A DNA stretch of 64,000 nucleotides from the NCBI GenBank assembly GCA_019722365.1, contig JADFUC010002279.1, forward strand, positions 1 to 64,000, written 5' to 3'. The notes below the pieces were generated by a model, which searched no databases, was not told the origin of the DNA, and saw nothing but the letters and a program-made list of their open reading frames with translations. Of this stretch, positions 18,040-40,290 are shown in pieces. A program made the translations under genes and the position numbers. Source of the stretch: Lithospermum erythrorhizon. Its lineage: Eukaryota > Streptophyta > Magnoliopsida > Boraginales > Boraginaceae. Position 1 is the stretch's first letter; every line of letters begins with the position of its first letter.

Positions 18040-18220
18040 AAAGTCAAATATTTTTAAAGATATACGTATTCAATGATATTAGGTTCTATTTTTGTTGAAA
18101 ACATAATAAATACTTTCGCAAATAAAGTCAACTAATGACTTTAAGGTATTATAATAAAAGCTAAGTAATCCTATAATCGAATATGTCAATTAATGAGTTA
18201 AATGTATTGCTATATAAAGT
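18040..18220 (+). promoter_or_regulatory. Proximal promoter of the PROPEP gene: W-box cores and TATA box
   Basis: CTATATAAAG at 18210-18219 is a strong TATA box 233 bases before the start codon. Three inverse W-box cores (GTCAA) lie upstream at 18043, 18127 and 18185, the middle one as AGTCAACTAATGACTTT with a TGAC on either strand. WRKY factors bind TTGAC cores, and PROPEP genes in other plants are induced by wounding and microbial patterns, so the arrangement fits (inference). Single W-box cores are frequent by chance in AT-rich DNA. Confidence 0.5.
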
Positions 18221-18451
18221 CCTCCTAAAATGATCCTAGAACAATTCTCGAGTCACTACCAATTGATTTCTCCTCATTAACTTCATTGTTGTACGTTAAT
18301 TCTTTAATTACTAAACGACAAGCATTACATGATAAAAACATTTCATAAAAGTGTGCCATAATAGGTCTTTGGTGATGCCTACAAATGCATAGAAAGAAGC
18401 AGTAAATAGAACATCTTGCTACAAAGAAGAAGAGTCAGATTTAATAAGGAG

Positions 18452-18694
18452 ATGGGAAATACAATTACTCGAGATTGTTTCCATGAAGCTTTAAGTACTT
18501 GTATCTTTAAATGCCTAGGTATTGACTATTCTTCATCTTCTATAAATAGTTTTAATGGTCATGTTTGTGATGAAACAACAAGCTGCCATCAACCTCTTCC
18601 TCCTCCACCTTCCTCAACAACTCCTGAGTCCGATCCGCCGCCGGCCAATAATGATGAATCCTCCTCTTCTACTACTGATGATGATCCACAAACT
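18452..18694 (+). CDS. Elicitor peptide precursor (PROPEP), exon 1
   Basis: The exon encodes 81 residues starting MGNTITRDCFHEALSTC. I chose the ATG at 18452 because the longer frame upstream has only a non-ATG start; the preceding context AAGGAG-ATGG is acceptable. Residues 8-23 form a short amphipathic stretch with CIFKCLG, like the AILKCLG-type segment near the N-terminus of Arabidopsis PROPEP1. The rest is low-complexity, hydrophilic and acidic: a PPPPSS run, then many S, T, D and E. There is no signal peptide, as known for PROPEPs, which stay in the cytosol or on the vacuole and are released on damage. The exon ends ...DDPQT at a strong donor, ACT|GTAAGT; reading through the donor gives a stop after four more codons. 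Joined in phase 0 to exon 2 it makes a 109-residue precursor, within the family's usual range. Additional small exons in the intron cannot be excluded. Confidence 0.78.
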
Positions 18695-18933
18695 GTAAGT
18701 GGCTTCTAATTACTATTAAGTGGTATGACTGGTATCCAAGAATCTCAAGTTTGAACACACAAATTCATTACTCATTAGCATAACTAACATTCATTTTTAT
18801 TTGAATGTCAGTTTCATTTTGTAATCCCTTCATTACAAAAAGATTACTTAGTTTGATTAATAATCTCAATTAACAAAATTTATAGTTTATTTGGTACCAT
18901 GAATTTGAATTAAATAAAAAATTGTTTTATTAA

Positions 18934-19190
18934 TATTCCCTCCATTTCATAATAGAAGAACTTTTAGCAATTGTTAGTTTATTCAAATTGAAGGTCGAAT
19001 TTCAATGTAAAAAATTAATGTTCAAAAGTTACTTTTGTACTTGGTCAACTCAAACAACATCTTCTATTGGTTCACTTGTATAGGAAGTAGTAACTTACAC
19101 TAACTATTTACACATTTCCAATATTTTAATAATTTTCTTAATATATGTGTGAGATTCTAAAAGTACTTCTATTATGAAATAGAGGGAGTA
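18934..19190. mobile_element. Stowaway-like MITE
   Basis: The terminal inverted repeats TTCCCTCCATTTCATAATAG and CTATTATGAAATAGAGGGAG, about 30 bases each (CTTCTATTATGAAAT... on the right), are flanked by TA on both sides (18934-18935 and 19189-19190). The size of 253 bases, the CTCCCTCC end and the TA target are typical of Stowaway elements (Tc1/mariner-derived). Confidence 0.85.
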
Positions 19191-21278
19191 GTAAATTACA
19201 TTAAAAATTATAATAACACGTAAAAATAATTAAATTCAAAATGTAAAAAGTTAAGTTATCAAAATTCAAATCTGGAAAATCTTCATTTAATAGAGCTAGT
19301 ATATGTGATTTCAATTTAATTACCTAATAAGATAACTTAATAATTAAAAATATTCGACCTTAATCATAAACTAATCTTATTTAAATAATTATTTATTATT
19401 GTATAACATGATACTTCCTCCGTTTTTTTATTTGTTATTTTAACAATTTTTACATAGATTAAGAAAAAGAAAAAGTAGTCAAAAGTACATTGAAAATGTA
19501 GAATGACAATCATTTAAAACTATACCTTGCTAGAAAAATGATCGGAGGCTAAGAATCATGATTCATCGGTTGCTAAACGCTCTGCTTGTCGGGTTACTTG
19601 GCAGGTACCCGCTGCAGCAATTAAAATGAGCACAAAACTCCCGTTGCCAAGCAAATTACCGCAGTTTGCAAGCAGATATTTTGTTCAAAAAGAAACTTTG
19701 ACCCAGTGAATCGGTCGAGCCCTTGCGCGTTACGAGGTCCGTTGCAAAATGAAATGAAGCTACTTCTGAGCCAGCAATTGACCGCACCAAAGTAGCTTTG
19801 AAGAACATTGCGAGCGAGCATAGAAGTCGTTGCGATACTTTGAAACCCATTGCAAATACTCCTTGAAGCTTGTTGTAAAACTTTGAAATCCGTTGTTAAA
19901 AATGTGTATTAAAGAAAAAAAAAAGATACGGCAGCAATAATAGAAAAAAAAATGCAGAAATCATTTATATATATTGCATTAAGTGCTAAGATGCAGAAAT
20001 AGTTTTAGCCATCCATTGCCAAAAATAATATCATCTATGACACCAATGCAAAATATTATTTCTTTTACACTCAATTCCAAAATGCATTGTCTAATTACAA
20101 CCAAATACAAAGAACAACATAGAACAATCAAAATGCAAAGAACGACATATATCAACCAAAATGAAGTTCAATATGAAACAATAACATAATAAGGCAGAGT
20201 TGGGTTAATATTAATTAATCTCCTTATGTACCAAATTTGATGTAAATATTCTTAAAATATGCAATTACAGATGATACAATTGAAAAAAAGAAAGAGTATC
20301 AAAATTATATATGCACTTAATTAGAATGTGTACCAAAATTCATTGAACAAATTGATACAAATTACTTAAAATTTTAAAATAAGCTTAAATAATTGAAATT
20401 AATGGATTTTATTTTTTGGCAGAAAATGAGTAAGTATTATAAATATGCAAAGAAGAAAATATATCATAAAATGTAATTTGTATTTTGATCGTTAATGAAG
20501 CCAATTAATGAGCAAAACGCTTAATAAATAAGTAAGCTTTGCATGCGTAATATAGCTCAACATCTTGACAAAATATTTCTCATTATGAAAATGAGAAACT
20601 TACACTTCAATTTTAAAATTGAAGAACAACAACTTAATCCCCTACAAAAATAAAAAAATAAATAGAAATGGGTTACATAGTTTTTATTAGAACAATCCAA
20701 ATTTAACTTTAAAAAGGCACAATTTTTTTTATTAAGAAGTCTAAAAATTTAAATAATTTAAGGAGTAGCTTAAAGTAGATGATTAATGTTTAATAGATTA
20801 TTTGTTCAAACATGATAAAAAGAATCAAAGTTGAAGATTGAGGTGGAAAATCTAAGTTGGAGATTGAGAGCATTACCTTTCTAAGTTGAAAATGAGTGGA
20901 TTAAGTTTGAATGAAGTCATTGAACCTTATATTGGGGGCAAATGTGTGGCTGAAAATTTGGGGGGCAAATTCAAGATTTTGGGATGAAAATTTTGGGGGA
21001 AAAGTGAAATTTGAAATTTGAATTTAAAACCTTTTGAAATATTTTTTTTAATTTACTCACTATAGTAATTTGAATTAATTGAGCTACCGGCTTTTCGAGA
21101 CATAATTTTAATCATTAATTACTTTTTTATATACGTTATGAAAAATTACAAAAAAAAAATATTATTAAAATATTTTTAAAGGCCAAATCAATGATATCTA
21201 AAAAGTAATTTGTGATCGAGGTCGACCGCGATCCCAAGCGTCGATTAATTTGAAATGGAGGGAGTATTATTGTACTCC

Positions 21279-21490
21279 ATCCGTCTCAAAATACATGATC
21301 ATCTAGAAAAATATTATTGTTTCACAATAGTTAATTGTTTGTATTTTTAATATACCTTTTTACAATCTCAATATAATTTTTTTACATTGTAATGTAGCTT
21401 GTTACAATTTCAATGTAACTTTTTATTTTCCTTAATAAAACACTTTTCATCAAGCAATCGCTTTTATTTTTGAAGCCGGATGAATTGTAT
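21279..21490. mobile_element. MITE candidate inside the CACTA element
   Basis: The left end TACTCCATCCGTCTCAAAAT (21279) and the right end GAAGCCGGATGAATTGTA (to 21490) form an imperfect inverted repeat. A separate relic of a MITE right end, GAAATGGAGGGAGTA, lies just upstream at 21254-21268. Confidence 0.4.
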
Positions 21491-22255
21491 ATATGTTATC
21501 GAAGAAACAATGAATAACACTTATCAATATAGTAACATCAACTAATGATAGTAATATGAAGATAGTATTATAAACTAAGTACTAACATGTTTATACTTTT
21601 AACATTGAGTGAAGAGAACATATTTAATTTGAAAATTTATTCCATTTTGGAGTTTTAACATTAAATGAAGATAATAAGTTGTTAAAATCTGGTTTTCGTT
21701 AAAATCATTAAGTTTTAACATTAAGTGAGGATAATTAGTTCAAGTGTATGTATCATATATTATCATTACATGTTATCCAAGGAACAATTAAAATTATTTA
21801 TCAATATAGTAACCTTGAAGAATGATATTAATATGAAGATAATATTCTTCACTAACTACTAACGGGTTTAGACATTGTATAATAAAATTCACATATTATA
21901 TAATAGTATTGTTATAAACTTAACATTGTTAAATTTAAATAATAAATCAATGATTTACCACCAGATAGCAACAAACTTACAATGAATATTGTGAAAATCG
22001 TTGCGAACACGTTATAAATATGTTGCTAGTTACTATTTCGTGTTGCCCTCACATTTATTATGATTTTTTGACATTGATTTTATAAGTTTAGATATTATTT
22101 ATTATTATCATTACATGTTATCTAAGGAACAATTAAAATTATTTATCAATATAGTAACATAAAAAAATGATGGTAATAAGAAGATAATATTCTGAACTAA
22201 ATACTAATGTGTTTAGACACTGTTAATACATTGAATGAGTAAAACATATTCAATT
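21485..22255. repeat. Three-copy tandem duplication, about 300 bp unit
   Basis: The block (A/T)TGTTATC(C/G)AAG(G/A)AACAAT...TTATCAATATAGTAAC...GATAATATT...ACTAA(C/G)TACTAA(C/T)...GTTTA recurs at about 21493, 21767 and 22107. Each copy is followed by a diverged tail mentioning ACATTGTTAA. The copies differ by substitutions and short indels, so the duplication is not recent. Confidence 0.7.
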
Positions 22256-23579
22256 CTTAGTATGTATATATCATTAATTTTAATAGATAAATTGCGTATA
22301 TTGTGTAATAGTATTGTTATTAACTTTTTATTTTTACATTTGAAGAAGAAATCAAGAATTACCATAAGGTTGCAACAATGTTGCCATGGACCTTATGAAA
22401 CTTGTAGCATATTCGTTGCTACTTGGGGGTTGATATTGGTAGAAAATAATTCTACAAATACTAATCGATAAAATTGAACAACAATTATTTCAACAATCAC
22501 ATATATCCAATAAAATTGAAAATTATATTTAATTTTTACATGTATTTATCATCCATGTTAAGAAGAAAATCCATATATTATGTAATAACTTTGTCATGAA
22601 CTTGTCATTGTTAATTTTGAAGAAAAAGTCAATAATTACCACGGATATGCAATAAATTTGCAACGAGCTTCATTACACAAGTCTTATGAAGCGTGTTGCC
22701 AAATTCATGGCAAACCCATTGTGGATGAAGGTTTTATTGCATAGTTATAGTTGAAGATGCAACATCATTGCGACAAGCATAGGTTAAAGGAAATATGTAA
22801 TGTTATAAAATTATATAACCCTATTTTGAATTGTTAGCTCAAACAAAGAACCACGATTTTGCTAACTTCTAAGGTATAAAAATGTAAACAAAATTAAATT
22901 AATTAACTCCTTGCAAACTTGTTGCAAACCCGTTGGAAGGTTGCAACGGATAGCGGTCCATTGTGAACTCGTTTCAATACTAGACCAGAAACTTTCTAAA
23001 CAGGCTTTTTTGCACCCGTTGCAAAGTTATGGTAAATTCGTTGCCAAGTAGACACCGTTTTGCAACTGTTTATTTTGCCCCTAGCCACTGCTCCTCTTTC
23101 TGGTTGTGATATTATTGGTTGGTTGATAATTTTATGAGAAAAAATAGTCAAAAGTTCATTGAAAATGTAAGAGTATAATTTTTAATGCTAGAAGACAAAT
23201 ATTTTGAAACAAAAAATTTAGACTTCATTAAATAATACTCCTTCGATTTTTTTTGAAACAAAAAATGAGAAAAAATAGTCAAAAGTTCATTAGCTTCAAG
23301 GATGACAAATATTTTGAAACAAAAAATTTAGGTTAGAACGACAAATAAAAAAAGAAGGAGTATCATATAAGTTTATGCTACGTGTTATTTAATCTTATTG
23401 ATCATTTAATTATAAAATGTTAAATGAATGAAATTCTAATGAAAAATAGGTTGACCAATAAAGAATCCCAATTAAATTGAAATAAATGGATTACTATGTA
23501 GGCCAGCAGAGGCGGATCGTAATTTAATGGTTTTAGAATTTTGGGCCATGCGCAAACTATGTGGGTAAAAATGCTAATT

Positions 23580-23960
23580 TATCCTATAATGTTCTTTTAG
23601 TTGTTGTTTTAGTCCAAATTTTTTGTTTCAAAATAGTTCTCGTTTTAGCCAAATAAATTATAATTTTATATTTTCAATTTACTTTTTGATTACGTTTTCT
23701 TTTTTAAATTATCAACCAACCAATTATGTAGTTTCAATTGATTGTCTTTTTAAATTTTCAATTTACTTTTTTACTACTTTTTATTTTCCTAATCTTTATA
23801 TAAATGGCGAAAATGACAAGTAAAAAAAACGGAGGGAGTATAATGGAGTATCTGATTGGACTTCACTAAATAATACTTCCTTCGATTTTTTTTACTTGTC
23901 ATTCTACCAAAATTTTCTTATTTTCTTTTACTTGTCATTCTACATTTCCTATGCACTTTT
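23580..23960. repeat. Cluster of Stowaway-type MITE ends
   Basis: A right end GACAAGTAAAAAAAACGGAGGG, finishing in AGTA at 23840, closes a MITE whose left end is degenerate (near 23590). A new left end, TACTTCCTTCGATTTTTTTT with ACTTGTCATTCTA, begins at 23874; its right end was not found. Nearby 23503-23545 (AGCAGAGGCGGATCGTAATT) and 24448-24490 (CAGTGACGGAACTAGTA) resemble ends of other small hAT-like repeats, but I could not pair them. Confidence 0.45.
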
Positions 23961-25354
23961 TCCTATTATATCTCTAAATATTAAATGCATTTGAGTCATT
24001 TTTATCTTCATTAATTTGAATATTTATTAGAATCCGTGTAGAGTCAAGATTTCATACTCTTATAAACGACGGTAAAGTATTTGTAACTTTCTTCATAATC
24101 CGCTACTATTTTTATTTTGCTCCCTTGTAAGACGGAATATCTATTTTTGAATGTATTTTATGAAGATTATATAGTTTATTTACGTAAAAAGGACTAATCA
24201 TATTCCATTTATATCAAAATTGTTTAGTTTGATTTTCAAATAATTAAAATAATAAAAGTAAGTAACTTCAACTAATTTATATAATTTTTAATCAAACCGT
24301 CCAAGCTAACTCAAACCGAACAATTAAGGAAATTTTAAAAAATATTTGATTCGATTTGATTTTGATTTTTTAAATGATTTATCAATCGGTTTGGTTTTGA
24401 TTTGTCATTTTAATAATCCGCCAATAATATAACCAAGTACCAAGTACTCAGTGACGGAACTAGTATTTTTATATTAGGGTGGCGGATTACTTGATACTAT
24501 ATTTATAAAGAAAAACATAAAAATTTAGAGGGGCGAACAAGATAATTTTTAAAAGAATACCTATTATTTTTTATAAAATTCTTAATAAAATTACTATTTT
24601 TTAAAAAAATTATAGAAGGCAACTGCTCTCCATACACCCCTAATTCCTCTACTGCAACCACTATTATACTTTATTAAGAAAAAATACATTATACATTCAC
24701 TCGTCTGTCTCTTTCGAATACACTGTTGCGGGACTTGAGACGATTCCAATTCACATCAACTATTATACAAATCATACCTTATTAGGTAAGAGTTAATGAA
24801 TAACTATTGCTAATTACTAAATATCTATTACTATTTATACAAGGAATTTAATCTATCAAAGTAAACATGAAATGATCTTAGCCATCAAATCGTGATCCAT
24901 ATCAACACATGTTGATCATGTCCTTTATCAACATACTTCTATTTGTTTGATATATTCTTTCATTACCTACTATCTATTCTAATAAACACGATTACCAAAT
25001 TTTAATGTTTTGTCTTTGTATATATTACAAAGTATTCTGCAATGAGTAAGATGGAGTGGGATACCTACTACATCTATGTCATGCATGTTAACCTGGATAA
25101 GAAAAACTTGTTAGATATAAGTGTATGAATATCTAATCATAGAAAAGTCCGGATAATTCTTTTGTAAGGGCATTACAATTGAGTAAATAATTGGGAAGAA
25201 GAAAAGGAAAGAAATATTACTTATGTGAGAATTTTCTTGGGAATAATTAGTTATTACATGGTTAAGTAATGGCTTAAATTCTTTCTATTCATAAATTAAA
25301 CTTTAACGAATTGGTCGATTTGTTAAACAATTAACAACTAAACAACCCATCAAC

Positions 25355-25445
25355 CAAGACTTCTAGCCTATTGGTTATCACCCCAAACCTCCACATGAGA
25401 GGTCTTGGGTTCGATCCAGAGAGGAACCCACCAAACGAATAAATT
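25355..25445 (+). mobile_element. tRNA-derived SINE candidate
   Basis: A Pol III box A-like TAGCCTATTGG at 25364-25374 and a box B GGTTCGATCC at 25408-25417 lie 33 bases apart, the normal spacing for SINE promoters. The body between reads like a degraded tRNA-related head (TATCACCCCAAACCTCCACA). No acceptor stem can be folded, so it is not a functional tRNA. The tail end is unclear. Confidence 0.45.
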
Positions 25446-26120
25446 TTGATATTGGGATGAATTACATTGAATTGAATTTAATTGGATTAGATATGAATTT
25501 AATGATATTGTTGTGATGTTTGAACGAATCGAGCACAATAGAAATTAATCATGTTAAGTAATTGAATTCAAGAACAGTATCTGAAGAACTTAATGATGCG
25601 GTGGGGATGGGGTGGGGGTTTGATTAAGGAGTTGGGTGCGTTAGATTTTTAATTATTATTATTTTTGTTTTAAATGGCTCAAATATATTTGTGTTGTTAA
25701 TAATTGATCCAGAAATTTGACATACATATACAATTTCGTTTTTCCTTTCAAAAATGTATTCAAGGAGAAATTTGACCAATATATTATAATAGTCTAGGGC
25801 AATCTGACCTAATGAAAAGGTTTAGGTGGTAAATTGACATGTTCCTTAAAATTTAAGAGGCTGGATGAATTTAAGCCTTAACTAATTAATAAAGTTTAAG
25901 GAGTTGGATGAATTTAAGCCTTAACTAATTAATGTGATTTTTTTTTTGTTTATTTGAAGAAGAATAATTTGTTTTGATTTATTTGAGAAACCTATAAATA
26001 ATCCCCTTCTGTAGGTTTTATGTTGATTTTTTAATTATAGGATATGTAAATTAATGGTTCTAAGAAAAAAAATTACATCAAAATAATTAATTATCAAAAA
26101 ATAGTGATCAATCAAATCTA

Positions 26121-26640
26121 TATCATATATAATGTCTAAGGATCCTATTGATGGTTATCAAGTGAAACCAAAATTTGATATTCCTATTTTACCCTTTTAG
26201 TAACTAACCACCTGAAATTCAACTTTTACAATATTTGCTTACATTTGACAAAACTATCGGAAACAAAGAAGAAAATAAAGGTCTCCGGTTATTTTTTCTA
26301 TGGTGGTGTATTGTCAGTTACCAAAACACCGAATATGATGGTATGATATTTTTTTCTCTTACATATTTCGTATGTTACATAATTTTAATTTATTATTTTT
26401 ATTGTGAAAAAAGATATTATAAAATAGATCGATGAATTTGCACAGATTAGACTGTGCACAAATAACTAAGTATATATTGGCCCGTTATGAAATCAATGGG
26501 TTCCTTTAAATATATAATTTCACTTCGTAATATAAAATGATTAAATATTAAGATTTCCTCACAAAAGTTAGAATATCTAACCTTTTCAAACAAATTGGTA
26601 ACTGTTAATAGGATCCTTAGACATTATATCATATATGATA
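26121..26640. mobile_element. Inverted-repeat element of about 0.5 kb, 160 bp upstream of exon 2
   Basis: TATCATATATAATGTCTAAG GATCCTATTGATGGTTA at the left is matched by the reverse complement of 26600-26640 (TATGATATAATGTCTAAGGA, then TCCTATTAACAGTTACCAA). The terminal inverted repeat is about 40 bases. The inside is AT-rich and has no transposase. It could be a Mutator-type or other MITE; the superfamily is not clear because the target duplication is not evident. The 66-codon ORF at 26235 lies within it and looks spurious. Confidence 0.65.
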
Positions 26641-26802
26641 CAAATTAGTAGCCTTCCTGATTTTATTTCATTGTTATCTTTTGTTTTTTCATTTAGAATG
26701 TGTTGATTGTGATATTTTCATTGTTAGCTTTTGGTTTTTCTTTTGGAATGGTTTCATTGTAATATATTCTTAGTTTGAAAGTATTTCTAATAACATGCAT
26801 AG

Positions 26803-26889
26803 GGAGGTGAAGCAGCGGCTTCAATTCTACTCGGAAGGCAACCTACAAGACCAGGTGTTGGCACTGGAGGTCCTCCTCAGACTAATTAA
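26803..26889 (+). CDS. Elicitor peptide precursor (PROPEP), exon 2 with the Pep peptide
   Basis: After the acceptor ...CATAG the frame encodes 28 residues and a TAA stop. The C-terminal 13 are RPGVGTGGPPQTN. The last 23 residues line up without gaps with the tomato-type Pep as I recall it, whose end is RPKVGSGPPPQNN: shared positions include the G-R pair at Pep 6-7, P at 9, R-P at 11-12, V-G at 14-15, the G at 17, P-P at 19-20, Q at 21 and the terminal N. The final N and the proline/glycine-rich core are what PEPR receptor kinases recognise in this family. Mature Peps are released from the C-terminus of the precursor by metacaspases, commonly after R or K; the arginine that precedes Pep in other species is not obvious here, since the residues before the alignment are GGEAA. 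Alternative: an unrelated proline-rich tail, unlikely given the gapless fit. Confidence 0.8.
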   Translation, partial: GGEAAASILLGRQPTRPGVGTGGPPQTN

Positions 26890-31819: not shown

Positions 31820-32380
31820 AATCAGCTGGTATTTTGATAGTGGTGCGAAGACACGTAGGCGGTAAGAGGAGGCATATGCTGCCCAGTATTTGCTCTTTGA
31901 AAGCGTGATTATGCTTGACTTTCGGTGATGGAGAAAAAGGAGAAATTATCGAGGAAAGGCTAAATGTGAATGAGGTCTACCTCGGCAGCCCGTGTTCTCT
32001 TTGTCAAAGATTTGTGCAATCTTATTAGCATAAATCGACTATGTGACAAAGCGTGAAGGTCTCTTTACGTAAGTAAGGGGTGTCTTGTCAAGGCGAATGT
32101 GAGGAAACACACCGGTAATGTAATAGTGCGAGGTCAGCGATAAGCTGGCATATAGTAGGTCGTTCGAGCCATGATGAGTAGAAAAGAGCGAGGATATTTG
32201 AACTAGCGCAAGCAGTGCAGACATACTCGTATAGAAACATTGATTGTTACAAAGAAACATCCGAGGGATACACTTTGCTTGAAGTATAAGATCGAGAATG
32301 TTGTGAATGTCATCTTTGGAAAAGCAGACCAAAAGTTTTAGCCCAGTTTCTGACATATGGTAACAAGCTGCGTGTACTTA
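31820..32380 (+). pseudogene. Protease and pre-integrase region, SIRE-like element
   Basis: WYFDSGA at 31827-31847 holds the aspartic protease active site (D-S-G, the usual form in copia). Downstream, FGDG and GEI-type pieces at about 31920-31950 match the region after the active site. The integrase zinc-finger part up to 32380 is not readable in a single frame. Confidence 0.65.
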
Positions 32381-32900
32381 CTTATTTAATGTACATGGAT
32401 TTGATGGGACCCATGCAAGTCGAGAGTATAGGAGGAAAGAGGTATGTATATGTGTGTGTGGATGATTTTTCTAGGTATACATGGGTGGATTTTCTCAGGG
32501 ATAAATCTGACACATTTGAAGTTGTAAAACGACTTATTCTACAAGTTCAAAATGAGAAGGAACAACAAGTTGTCAGAATCAGGAGTGACCATGGAAAAGA
32601 ATTTGAGAATGCTAAATTCCTTGAGTTTTGTACAAGTGAGGGAATTATTCATGAATTCTCAGCCCCCATAACCCCACAACAAAATGGTGTAGTAGAGAGG
32701 AAGAGGCCGAACTATCAAAGAGATGGCACGGGTAAATTGCTCGTTCGAAGAAATATTTCTCTAAAATTTTGGGCCAAAAGCAATCGACTTTCGCTTGCCG
32801 TTCATGTCGGGTAACCGCCGTCCGGCGCAAAACAACACAAATTATGAAATATGGAGGGGGAGAAAGCCTAATGTACAATATTTTCATGTTTTTGGTAGTT
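32380..32900 (+). pseudogene. Integrase core, SIRE-like element
   Basis: The open frame 32389-32814 is the best kept part of the element. The three catalytic acidic residues are visible: D in MDLMGPM (32395-32415), D in IRSDHGKEFEN (about 32578-32611), and E in QQNGVVERK (about 32680-32706). The fold GKRYVYVCVDDFSRYTWV lies between the first two. After about 32715 the frame is disturbed. Integrase joins the double-stranded cDNA to the host chromosome. Confidence 0.85.
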
Positions 32901-33259
32901 TGTGTTATATTCTTGCAGATCGAGAGCCAAGGCAGAAACTAGATGTCAAAGGTGATGAAGAGTCTTCTTGAAATTTTCGAGAAGCAGTCGAGCCTTCGAG
33001 TTTACAACAAAGAACTCCAACGGTTATGGAGTCCCTTAATGTGAGAGGTATTGGACACGGGAGTTGCGACTTCGTGATCACGGCTGACCGAAGATGTTGT
33101 GCACGTCAAGACACTTGTACCTTGACAATGAAAGCGATCTTGAAGCAGCCAGCTAATGAAGCGGTGATGAAAATTAGGCCTATCTTTGCGCCACTCGATT
33201 CAAAGGGACCGTCCCTCTGAGGAAAATAGTATTGGAGAAAAGAACTAACGGACTATAGA

Positions 33260-34440
33260 AGAATGGTTGGACTACTTGGAGAGAAAGTTGCAAGATGAAC
33301 ATTGGATTAATGCCATGCAAGAAGAATTAATCCAATTTCAACGTAATGATGTGTGGGAACTCGTGCCAAGACCAAAGGATCATAATGTGATAGGGACAAA
33401 ATGGATTTTCAAAAATAAATCCGATGAACAAGGCGTTGTGACCAGAAATAAAGCAAGACTAGTGGCACAAGGATATTCACAAGTGGAAGGTGTAGACTTT
33501 GAGAAACATTTCTCTGTTGCGGTTAGAGCCATCACGACTTCTCACCGTAGCTTTGTATGATGAAGTTTAAATTGTCGGATGGATGTGAAGTGCGTTCTAA
33601 ATGGTGTTGTTGAAGAAAAGTCTATGTGGAGCAGTAGAAGGTCGTCGATAGCGGATGTCCCGAACATGTGTGGCGAAGAAAGCTTGTATGGTCACCAGCT
33701 TGGCTCCTCGGCTGATGCGAGCTCGCAGTATCACATTGACGAAAAGGATATACAGATGAGGACCGATAAGACCTACATTTATCAACATGAAAAAGAATGT
33801 TTTGATAGTTGCGAATCTATGTTGATGATATAATCTTTGGAGAATGTCCGAACAACTAGTGCAACAATTTGTTCAGCCAAAATGGAATCGGAGTTTGGGA
33901 AATGAGCATGGTAGGAGAGTTGAATTATTTTCTTGGATTTCAAGTCAAGCAGATGAAGGATGGCATCTTTATATCTCAAACGAAATATGCCAAGAATCTT
34001 GTGAAAAAATTTGGACTCGAAAATACCAAGTCAAAGAGGACACCAGCTGCAACTCATGTGAAAGTCAGTAAAGATGTTGATGGAAGTTCAGTGGACATAA
34101 GCAATTATCGGAGTATGATAGGGAGTTTGTTATATCTCACAGCAAGCCGTCCTGACATTTCCTACTCGGTGGGAGTATGTGCTCGTTTTCAAGAAAATCC
34201 CAAAGAAAGTCATTTGAACCAAGCCAAAAGAATCATCAAATATGTGAATGGTACGTTGAATTATGGACTATTTTATGCTTTTGATACTAATGATTCATTG
34301 GTAGGATATTGTGATGCCGATTGGGCGGGAAATCTGAGAAGGCAGGGAAGAAGCGGCTTACGGTGGATGTTTGCTTTTTTGGGAAATAATCTAATATCCT
34401 GGTTTAGCAAAAAGCAAAACTCACGTGTCTACCGGCGGGT
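33260..34440 (+). pseudogene. Reverse transcriptase, SIRE-like element
   Basis: 33267-33560 encodes the start of the copia RT: WINAMQEELIQFQRNDVWEL, then IGTKWIFKNK and ARLVAQGYSQVEGVDF. A damaged stretch follows (33560-33810). The catalytic YVDD is at 33818-33829, followed by IIFG. The next frame, 33869-34400, continues with GELNYFLGFQVKQ, ISQTKYAKNLVKKFGLE, YRSMIGSLLYLTASRPDI and YCDADWAGN. The gap between the pieces is one of frameshifts rather than missing sequence. Confidence 0.85.
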
Positions 34441-34735
34441 AGGCCGAATATATATAATGTGAGTATGGTGTACTCAACTCTTATGGATGAAGCAAATGCT
34501 TGAGGAGTATAATGTGTGTCAAAATGCCATGATCTTGTATTGTGATAATTTGAGTGCCATCAATATATCAAAAAATCCTGTCCAGCATAGTCGAACCAAA
34601 CATATTGATATCAGGCACCATTTTATACGAGGTGGTAGAGACGGGTGGCGTCACTTGAACATGTGATGCGGACAACTTTGCGGACATTTTTTGCTAAGGC
34701 CTCGGATGCGGCTAAGTTTTGAATCCTTGAGATCG
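34441..34735 (+). pseudogene. RNase H, SIRE-like element
   Basis: The frame continues as ILYCDNLSAINISKNPVQHS and RTKHIDIRHHFIR (about 34535-34630), the conserved end of copia RNase H, then a degraded tail with ADIF and KA pieces near 34675-34700. RNase H removes the RNA strand during cDNA synthesis. Confidence 0.75.
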
Positions 34736-38389: not shown

Positions 38390-40290
38390 GGTGAAGAGCA
38401 TGGGATTACTATTTGTAGAAAGCAACAACGACTCGCGGCAATGCAAATTTGGAAGATGAATTTGAAAGAGAAATGATGCGGACTTGGGGAGGTTCCACTT
38501 TGGCTTGTGAAAGTGTAACAGAGTCTGCCTTAAAGAAAAAATGTCTTGTTTTTCACCTATCATGACATCATTTGGTATTCAAGCCAGAGACCAATTGGAT
38601 CAAGAAATTGCAAGAATGTTTTATACTGGAGGCTTGCCATTCAATCTTGCAAGAAATCCACATTAGCATAGGTCTTATCGGTTCTTTGCTATGACCAAAA
38701 TTGATGGTTATGTACCTCTGGTTATAATAGCTCAGTTAACCTTATTGCGGCAAGAAAAAAACAATGTCAGTTATTAGGTGCCCGGCATGGAAAGAAAAGA
38801 AATTTGGCGATTGTGAGTGATGGTTGGAGAGCGTCTTACAAAGAAAGCCTTTGATTGGTACGCCAAGCTGCTTCTTGCCAGTAGTCTACACCGAGAAATT
38901 TTGTGAATTGTTTCGGCGAAGTGAAAGATAGATTTTTATTATTTGATTTGATGAAAGAAGTTATCAATGAAGTGGGACATCAAAAATAATGCCGAAATAA
39001 TTCTTACAATATCAGAGTGGCATTTGGAGAAGATGTAGAAATGCATTTCCCATCTATTGGACACCGTGTGTTGTTCGTCCCACTTAATGCTTGCTTTGAA
39101 AAATATTTGTGCGACAAAACATGTGGAAGGAATGTAAATATGAGAAGTGTAATTGGATAATCGGCGTTGTTCATGGGGATGCGCTCGCAATAAAACATTT
39201 CATTATGAACGTAACATGAGGCTAGCGATTTTAGTAAGTTACTATATACTTAAGTACTTTGGTTGTTGATAACGTTTTGCCTTTATCATTGTGATGCTTA
39301 AAGACTAAAGCTTATAAAAAAGGGTCTTCAAGCCATGGTTATAAGTGAGGAGTGGTCTACTTATAGAGAAGATGACATTGGGAAAGCAAATTTTGTTAAA
39401 GAGAAGATTGTGAATGATGATTGGTGGGAAAAAGTGTCTTATATTATTGATTTCACAAAACCTATATATGATATGATTAGATTTTGTGACACTGACAAGC
39501 CATGCCTTCACTTGGTATATGAGATGTGGGATTCTATGATCGAAAAGGTGAAGCTTGAGATATACAAGAAAGAAAATCGTTCATCGTCTGAATTTAGTAT
39601 CTTCTATGATGTTGTTTATGGGATCTTAGTGGCTCGTTGGACGAAGAATAACACTCCTCTACATTGTCTAGCTCACTCTTTAAATCCAAGGTATATGATT
39701 TAATTATATGATTTATTTTTTATTTTTATTTCATTGCCACATATATATAACACGTTTTGTATGTTGTAGATTTTATAGTGATGAATGGCTAAATGAGGAT
39801 TCCTCCAGACTTGGTCCCCATAGAGATGAGGAAATCTCACGTGAGAGAATGAAGTGTTTTCGAAGATTGTTTTCAAGTGATAATGATCATAAGAAAGTTA
39901 GGGATGAATATGCATTATTTTCAATGAAGATGGGTACTTTTGAGGATTTAACAAGCATTTCAATGATGTCTGTTATGGAACCTAAGAGTTGGTGGGCTAA
40001 CTTTGGTGCCCAAACTCCTCTCCTCTAAACTTTGGCTTTTAAGTTCTTCAGAACAGCGCAGTTCTCTTCTTGTGTAGGCGTAATTAGATCTTTTTACTAA
40101 ATTCGTTCATTTTCGGCTTAGAAGGAACGAAGTTGAATCAGTGGAGTGCTTAGATTTGGTTTAAATCACAAAAATCTCATTGTTTTATCGAGAATTAGAT
40201 CCCGATGTGGTGAAAAGCCAAAATGTGAATGTTGGTGGAGATGAGTTTAATTCTATGGAAGATGTGGGATTCATGGAGTTTGCGGACCTC
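38390..40290 (+). pseudogene. hAT transposase, central and C-terminal part
   Basis: Near 38595-38660 the frame reads DQEIARMFYTGGLPFNLAR, part of the DUF659-like domain. The best open stretch, 39335-39690, contains PIYDMIRFCDTDKPCLHLVY, WDSMIEKVK and PLHCLAHSLNPR. A canonical 79-base intron (GTATAT at 39691, AG at 39769) joins LNPR in frame to FYSDEWLNED. The following exon ends with MEPKSWWANFGAQTPLL (to 40025), part of the hAT dimerisation domain; a degraded tail with EDVGFMEFADL is near 40255-40290. The tryptophan pair (SWW) of the hAT C-terminus is present. Stops and frameshifts occur between 38650 and 39330 and after 40025, so it is likely inactive. Confidence 0.85.
39691..39769 (+). other. 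Intron in the hAT transposase gene
   Basis: The GT-AG intron is AT-rich with a long T-tract before TTGTAG; removing it restores the expected ...LNPR|FYSDEW... frame. Its survival shows that this part is not a processed copy. Confidence 0.75.

Follow-up and report, generated by a model that had tools for sequence, protein, structure and literature searches.

A divergent candidate PROPEP gene with a Pep-like C-terminus in Lithospermum erythrorhizon

Results

A two-exon gene model with a Pep-like C-terminus

We analysed a 64,000-nucleotide stretch of Lithospermum erythrorhizon DNA (the window; positions 1 to 64,000 of contig JADFUC010002279.1, here C1052), for which an earlier note had proposed a gene encoding a PROPEP, the precursor of a plant elicitor peptide (Pep). 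The gene model comprises two exons separated by a long intron (Table 1), and joining exon 1 to exon 2 in phase 0 predicts a precursor of 109 residues. Exon 1 starts with an ATG and ends in ACT, directly followed by the donor GTAAGT, and the intron closes with TGCATAG right before exon 2. On re-reading the letters we found the coordinates, the frame and the splice phase of the earlier model all as claimed, with CIFKCLG present at residues 17-23. The acidic middle and the lack of a signal peptide, both put forward in the same note, were borne out as well: residues 24-81 contain ten acidic and no basic residues, and no signal-peptide-like hydrophobic core was seen when mean hydropathy, at most 0.32 in the 18-residue windows covered, was used as a proxy. 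The N-terminal part and the mature Pep of PROPEPs are described as being encoded by separate exons (PMC5782389; PMC accessions stand for excerpts of the respective papers here and below). The window gene model and the models of two relatives on contigs C168 and C844 have the same predicted arrangement, and the fit of the published exon split to the window gene supports its interpretation as a PROPEP.

The last 23 residues of the predicted precursor were said to align without a gap with the tomato-type Pep, and this is the case: 13 of 23 residues are identical to SlPep (BLOSUM62 score 66). The letters of the SlPep query are matched in PMC12283378. Every stop-ended 23-residue tail was then scored against SlPep with BLOSUM62, both in the window and, as a control, in 148 Mb of random sequence having the third-order composition of the window. 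The best of 4,272,743 random tails scored 34 and none reached ten identities, and the window itself has 1,717 such tails, of which the second best scored 13. The C-terminus thus resembles a Pep far more than expected by chance. Gly15, Gly17, Gln21 and Asn23 of the Pep are kept, positions 15 and 17 both being Gly as in SlPep. The critical Pep residues are thus present at the extreme C-terminus, i.e. position 15 (Gly; Ser in AtPep1), Gly17 and Asn23, these three positions being described as the most important ones of AtPep1 (PMC4526913; PMC5782389). Searching solved structures with AtPep1 alone gave no match.

The earlier note had also suggested a search with a PROPEP profile. Among 24,736 Pfam families, Pep1_7 (PF17232) gave the top match to the whole window protein (E 0.026, 15.4 bits) and was the sole family listed for exon 1 alone (E 0.086, 13.8 bits), and none of eight shuffled window proteins matched it. 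The exon 1 match carries weight because the family had been named beforehand and is one out of 24,736.

Relatives of the window gene in the same genome

We searched the genome (366 Mb, 2,391 contigs) for further PROPEP-like genes. At E 0.001 the window protein found its own two exons only (all seven candidates scored), and a search with Pep1_7 (five candidates scored) led to four other places, located on contigs C168, C844, C1602 and C855. The C168 gene is predicted to have a phase-0 intron of 180 bp with a GTAAGT donor; its product of 89 residues ends TINTGSGAQTNTSSS and scores 36.8 bits with Pep1_7, above the curated cut-off of 26.2 bits. Exon 2 of the C844 gene encodes ESEDLRKPPKQGVTTGSPQTNADEL, and the C844 protein scores 23.4 bits, below the cut-off. 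The window, C168 and C844 proteins all match Pep1_7 better than any other Pfam family, and all three gene models share a GTAAGT donor, phase 0 and a putative Pep in exon 2.

The C844 and window proteins align over their whole length with 43 of 119 positions identical (E 2e-9 in this single comparison), and their score of 117 compares with a maximum of 67 over 2,000 shuffles. Both parts contribute, as the exon 1 parts score 84 (at most 56 in 2,000 shuffles) and the exon 2 parts 44 (at most 42, with none of 2,000 shuffles reaching the observed score). The two proteins have in common the MGN start, KCLGI followed by serines, a phase-0 GTAAGT intron and a tail of the V.TG.PQTN type. They differ in that identity is 36%, the C844 intron measures 758 bp, ADEL follows the Asn in C844 and its tail is one residue shorter. 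A four-row alignment of the three proteins with AtPROPEP1 has ten invariant columns, including K20, C21, L22, G23, G103, Q107 and N109 of the window protein.

The scan for stop-ended tails had missed the C168 and C844 tails because residues follow the Asn in both. The C168 tail was then read directly from the DNA, and the C844 tail was taken from a scan allowing any position on both strands of about 47.4 kb of contig C844. There it scored 29, at the top of five stretches with the next at 28 and 27, and its assignment also rests on strand, distance, acceptor, phase and the exon 2 shuffle comparison. With the C168 protein as query, the genome search returned the two C168 exons themselves and a single weak match on C2312 (E 0.56).

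The matches on C1602 (L019) and C855 (L021) were rejected as PROPEPs, as in both the KCLG stretch lies close to a KTD-stop and its frame contains no Pep-like tail. The two appear to be copies of one terminal exon belonging to a different, non-PROPEP gene; of the two, C855 was read as DNA. The C1602 exon scores 27.0 bits with Pep1_7 and is probably a false positive of this model; since it exceeds the cut-off, passing that cut-off alone is no proof of a PROPEP.

A PEPR-type receptor gene

A genome search with AtPEPR1 gave one outstanding locus, C1952:88331-91876, whose main piece scores 966.8 bits, and the next locus among the 41 of 1,615 candidates that were scored has 526.9 bits. The ectodomain of the query is identical to that of PDB 5gr8. 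The C1952 gene model encodes 1,105 residues and contains one intron of 252 bp within the kinase part. Its product and AtPEPR1 are each other's best match in both directions, with 543 of 1,099 aligned columns being identical, and among solved structures its first 793 residues match PEPR1 best (659.6 bits, with GSO1 at 519.7 bits). By sequence, C1952 thus carries a PEPR-type receptor kinase gene, the one outstanding in this genome and a candidate receptor for the window peptide.

Three contact residues of AtPEPR1, Tyr395, Asp441 and Arg487, the last of which we take to be the arginine of leucine-rich repeat (LRR) 18 holding the Pep C-terminus, are all kept in the C1952 protein. Tyr395 and Asp441 are described to bond Gln21 and Asn23 of the Pep (PMC6668560), and an LRR 18 arginine of the receptor to hold the Pep C-terminus (PMC6749341). 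These contact residues are kept on both sides, Tyr, Asp and Arg in the receptor and Gln21 and Asn23 in the window peptide. Of the contact residues, 18 of 25 are reported not to be conserved between families (PMC4526913).

Table 1. Predicted features of the window gene and gene models of its two relatives
Feature	Position	Strand	Description
TATA-box-like motif, candidate	18211-18217	+	241 bp 5' of the ATG; consensus match
Exon 1	18452-18694	+	81 codons, open frame; N-terminal PROPEP part, CIFKCLG, acidic middle
Pfam Pep1_7 match, residues 9-33	18476-18550	+	profile positions 21-44; profile search
Intron, predicted	18695-26802	+	8,108 bp, GT-AG, phase 0
Multicopy element resembling a miniature inverted-repeat transposable element (MITE)	18930-19194	+	38-bp inverted ends; inverted repeat I3, inside the intron
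Exon 2, Pep-carrying	26803-26889	+	28 codons plus TAA
Predicted Pep region, residues 87-109	26818-26886	+	23 residues, gapless with tomato Pep
Shorter candidate mature peptide, residues 94-109	26839-26886	+	16 residues after Arg93; putative
C168 gene (L022)	C168:490263-490712		exon 1 490712-490584, exon 2 490403-490263; 89 residues
C844 gene (L023)	C844:46052-47133		exon 1 47133-46888; predicted 758-bp intron, phase 0, GTAAGT donor

Upstream region

Both strands of 18101-18451 were scanned for TATA[AT]A[AT], giving the candidate TATA box of Table 1 as the only match. The W-box TTGAC[CT] occurs three times in the 1 kb upstream of the gene, compared with 1.23 per kb in the window (Poisson probability 0.13).

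Evidence against a PROPEP and alternative explanations

Several observations weigh against the interpretation as a PROPEP. The window protein stays under the Pep1_7 cut-off, AtPROPEP1 reaching 62.6 bits, and the genome search with Pep1_7, in which five candidates were scored, did not return the window exon, even at E 10. One of the eight shuffled proteins matched a different Pfam family with E 0.064, so that an E-value near 0.086 means little by itself. The N-terminus, described before as amphipathic, turned out not to be so, its hydrophobic moment being at most 0.19 (18-residue windows starting at residues 1-12) compared with up to 0.55 in the AtPROPEP1 windows covered, and the EKE motif is absent from all 109 residues. 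The tail is less basic than SlPep because the RR pair of the latter is replaced by LL (charge +2 versus +4), leaving Arg93 and Arg97 as the only basic residues among the 23. Similarity to the C168 protein is weak, with a score of 39 that was reached by 22 of 2,000 shuffles (58 for the exon 1 and 7 for the exon 2 parts), and C844 and C168 are somewhat better matched to each other (2 of 2,000). Finally, the intron is far longer than the 180 bp and 758 bp found in C168 and C844, and the contig pairs with itself in inverted orientation.

As to the first of these points, we took the Pep1_7 cut-off to mark what can be detected, not what defines a PROPEP, because many PROPEPs are reported to share less than 10% identity with each other (PMC4526913) and because the unrelated C1602 exon passes it. 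Nor is the EKE motif defining, since it is reported in several PROPEPs and coffee PROPEPs carry EKD instead (PMC11289955).

The length of the intron bears on the alternative that survives best, namely that the gene is of PROPEP descent but has lost Pep production because the 8.1-kb intron is poorly spliced and transcripts end within it. The intron has a GC content of 26.7%, and its first 500 bp match 39 other places in the genome, every match falling within about 18930-19194 of the window (40 of 104 candidates scored); the closest listed copy (L032) is 94% identical. The presence of this multicopy element within the intron argues that the intron has been enlarged by a mobile element, at least at 18930-19194. 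The element begins just 235 bp into the intron, and unspliced reading of exon 1 continues to VSGF, followed by a stop, as would be expected if transcripts ended in the intron. Against such a loss, the frame is open through each exon, the intron has a GTAAGT donor, and the Pep exon is directly preceded by a phase-0 acceptor. Moreover, positions 15, 17, 21 and 23 of the tail are kept, which suggests, without proving it, that the tail is under selection. We therefore regard loss of Pep production as unlikely.

The two remaining alternatives are both very improbable. Chance might have joined an open frame containing the KCLG word to an unrelated proline/glycine-rich tail, in keeping with the weak exon 1 match to Pfam when taken alone and with a donor having six of the eight consensus letters, but random tails never came close to the observed score and the C844 paralog aligns over the whole length, tail included. 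A precursor of another small peptide, of the systemin, CEP, IDA, PIP or SCOOP type, with a convergent Pro/Gly tail ending in Asn, is no better placed: several plant peptides are rich in Pro and Gly and some have a C-terminal Asn, but all of the named types except systemin carry a signal peptide, of which the hydropathy proxy gives no sign here, and all three genes have Pep1_7 as their top Pfam match.

Inverted self-pairing of the contig

Self-comparison of contig C1052 (91,989 bp) revealed inverted pairing with a fold at about 60 kb. The region at 21.1-28.6 kb pairs with 90.3-84.2 kb, followed by more pieces down to 56.6/63.2 kb, and identity between the arms is 69-89% with a steadily drifting offset. 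In pairs starting at 20-29.5 kb the GC content is 0.318 in the right and 0.256 in the left arm, and the right arm shows 222 AT-to-GC versus 79 GC-to-AT differences as well as 302 missing versus 85 added bases. This lopsided pattern fits the fold-back of a noisy, uncorrected read. The right arm, a degraded and inverted copy of the region around the gene, is thus perhaps an artefact of a folded-back, uncorrected long read, or it may be a real inverted duplication that has decayed.

Base composition was considered as well. GC content is 0.28 within about 16.5-29.5 kb and 0.40-0.44 outside, where CpG observed/expected is about 1.0; around the kinase loci L004-L015 this ratio is 0.29-0.50. As four stretches of contig C844 (L024-L027) have similar values of 0.92-1.17, composition points weakly to an artefact, and the idea that the rest of the contig is a raw read was dropped as too strong.

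In reverse orientation the window intron aligns with sequence at the contig end. This similarity had suggested a second gene copy, but the self-comparison attributes it to the fold-back. The right-arm counterpart of exon 2 is identical to window exon 2 at 62 of 82 aligned bases, our scan found no Pep-like frame in it, and the counterpart of exon 1 would fall past the contig end. The intron element and the right arm are 62% identical, wrong-strand controls giving 63-67%. Whether artefact or duplication, the window gene is the intact copy. Since the fold-back may be an artefact, small features read by eye in 20000-64000 of the window and 64001-91989 of the contig (L003, L016, L017) have to be treated with care.

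Translations read by eye also suggested mobile elements elsewhere in the window, with integrase- and reverse-transcriptase-like open frames from broken pieces of a copia-like retroelement at 32290-34459 and hAT-type transposase-like open frames at 39302-40025.

Discussion

Based on the Pep-like tail, two relatives of the same build and one PEPR in the genome, we conclude with high confidence, from sequence comparisons, that the window gene is a PROPEP; it very probably is a genuine, if divergent, member of this known family. How it would be processed, released and perceived is inferred from what is described for other members. Made without a signal peptide, the 109-residue precursor would be retained in the cell. 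PROPEPs are described to lack a signal peptide, AtPROPEP1 and AtPROPEP6 to be located on the vacuole membrane, and AtPROPEP1 to be cleaved after Arg69 by metacaspase 4, metacaspases cutting after Arg or Lys (PMC13157962). Upon wounding, a calcium-activated metacaspase would cut the window precursor after an arginine, most likely Arg93. The resulting 16-residue peptide QPTRPGVGTGGPPQTN would be a likelier product than the 23-mer, because the 23-mer is not directly preceded by a basic residue and Arg93 comes first among the tail arginines; the C-terminal 15 residues of AtPep1 are reported to be enough for activity (PMC4526913). The freed peptide would reach the cell surface and lie along the PEPR ectodomain, with its Gln21 and Asn23 (Pep numbering) in contact with the conserved Tyr, Asp and Arg. 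The bound receptor would trigger defence or regeneration signalling. The tomato Pep is also described as REF1, a promoter of wound regeneration (PMC13157962).

The closest known counterparts are the Peps of tomato (SlPep, also called SlPep6 or REF1) and potato (StPep1, whose letters are printed in PMC12734062). The window tail has 13 of 23 residues in common with SlPep, without a gap and at the extreme C-terminus. The remaining ten positions differ from SlPep and include the RR-to-LL, K13-to-G, P18-to-G and N22-to-T replacements. As seven of nine solanaceous Peps are reported to share identical residues at 20 of 25 positions (PMC11289955), the window tail probably lies outside the solanaceous range, SlPep and StPep1 being the solanaceous sequences considered. 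With AtPROPEP1 and the PF17232 family the window protein shares the KCLG segment and Gly17, Gln21 and Asn23 of the Pep, whereas just 7 of 23 tail residues are identical to AtPROPEP1 and the score, the missing EKE motif and the non-amphipathic N-terminus set it apart. The window gene thus belongs to a known family and is divergent enough to fall under the Pfam cut-off.

The N-terminus of the window protein allows a further, more tentative suggestion. Its start, MGNTITR, fits the PROSITE N-myristoylation pattern (PS00008), and cysteines follow at positions 9, 17 and 21. In its strict form the pattern is not fitted by C844 (which starts MGNC), C168 or AtPROPEP1. The window gene, and perhaps C844 too, could encode a lipid-anchored PROPEP, held at a membrane through myristate and palmitate until proteolysis releases it, although we consider this unlikely. 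If true, there would be two PROPEP classes acting on one PEPR, a basic classical class represented by C168 and a second class combining an MGN start with a Pro/Gly Pep. The idea may already exist, as literature joining PROPEP, myristoyl and PEPR is in print.

Peps diverge fast, and gene finders and family models can miss such genes, as they might here, where a score under the Pfam cut-off, an exon 2 of 28 codons and an 8.1-kb intron all favour a miss. The PROPEPs of N. otophora and Coffea humblotiana are reported to diverge close to where the Pep begins (PMC11289955), and by analogy annotation may have overlooked their last exon. With three predicted precursors and one outstanding receptor, L. 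erythrorhizon raises the question whether its Peps are equally strong, or play the same role, when acting on a single PEPR.

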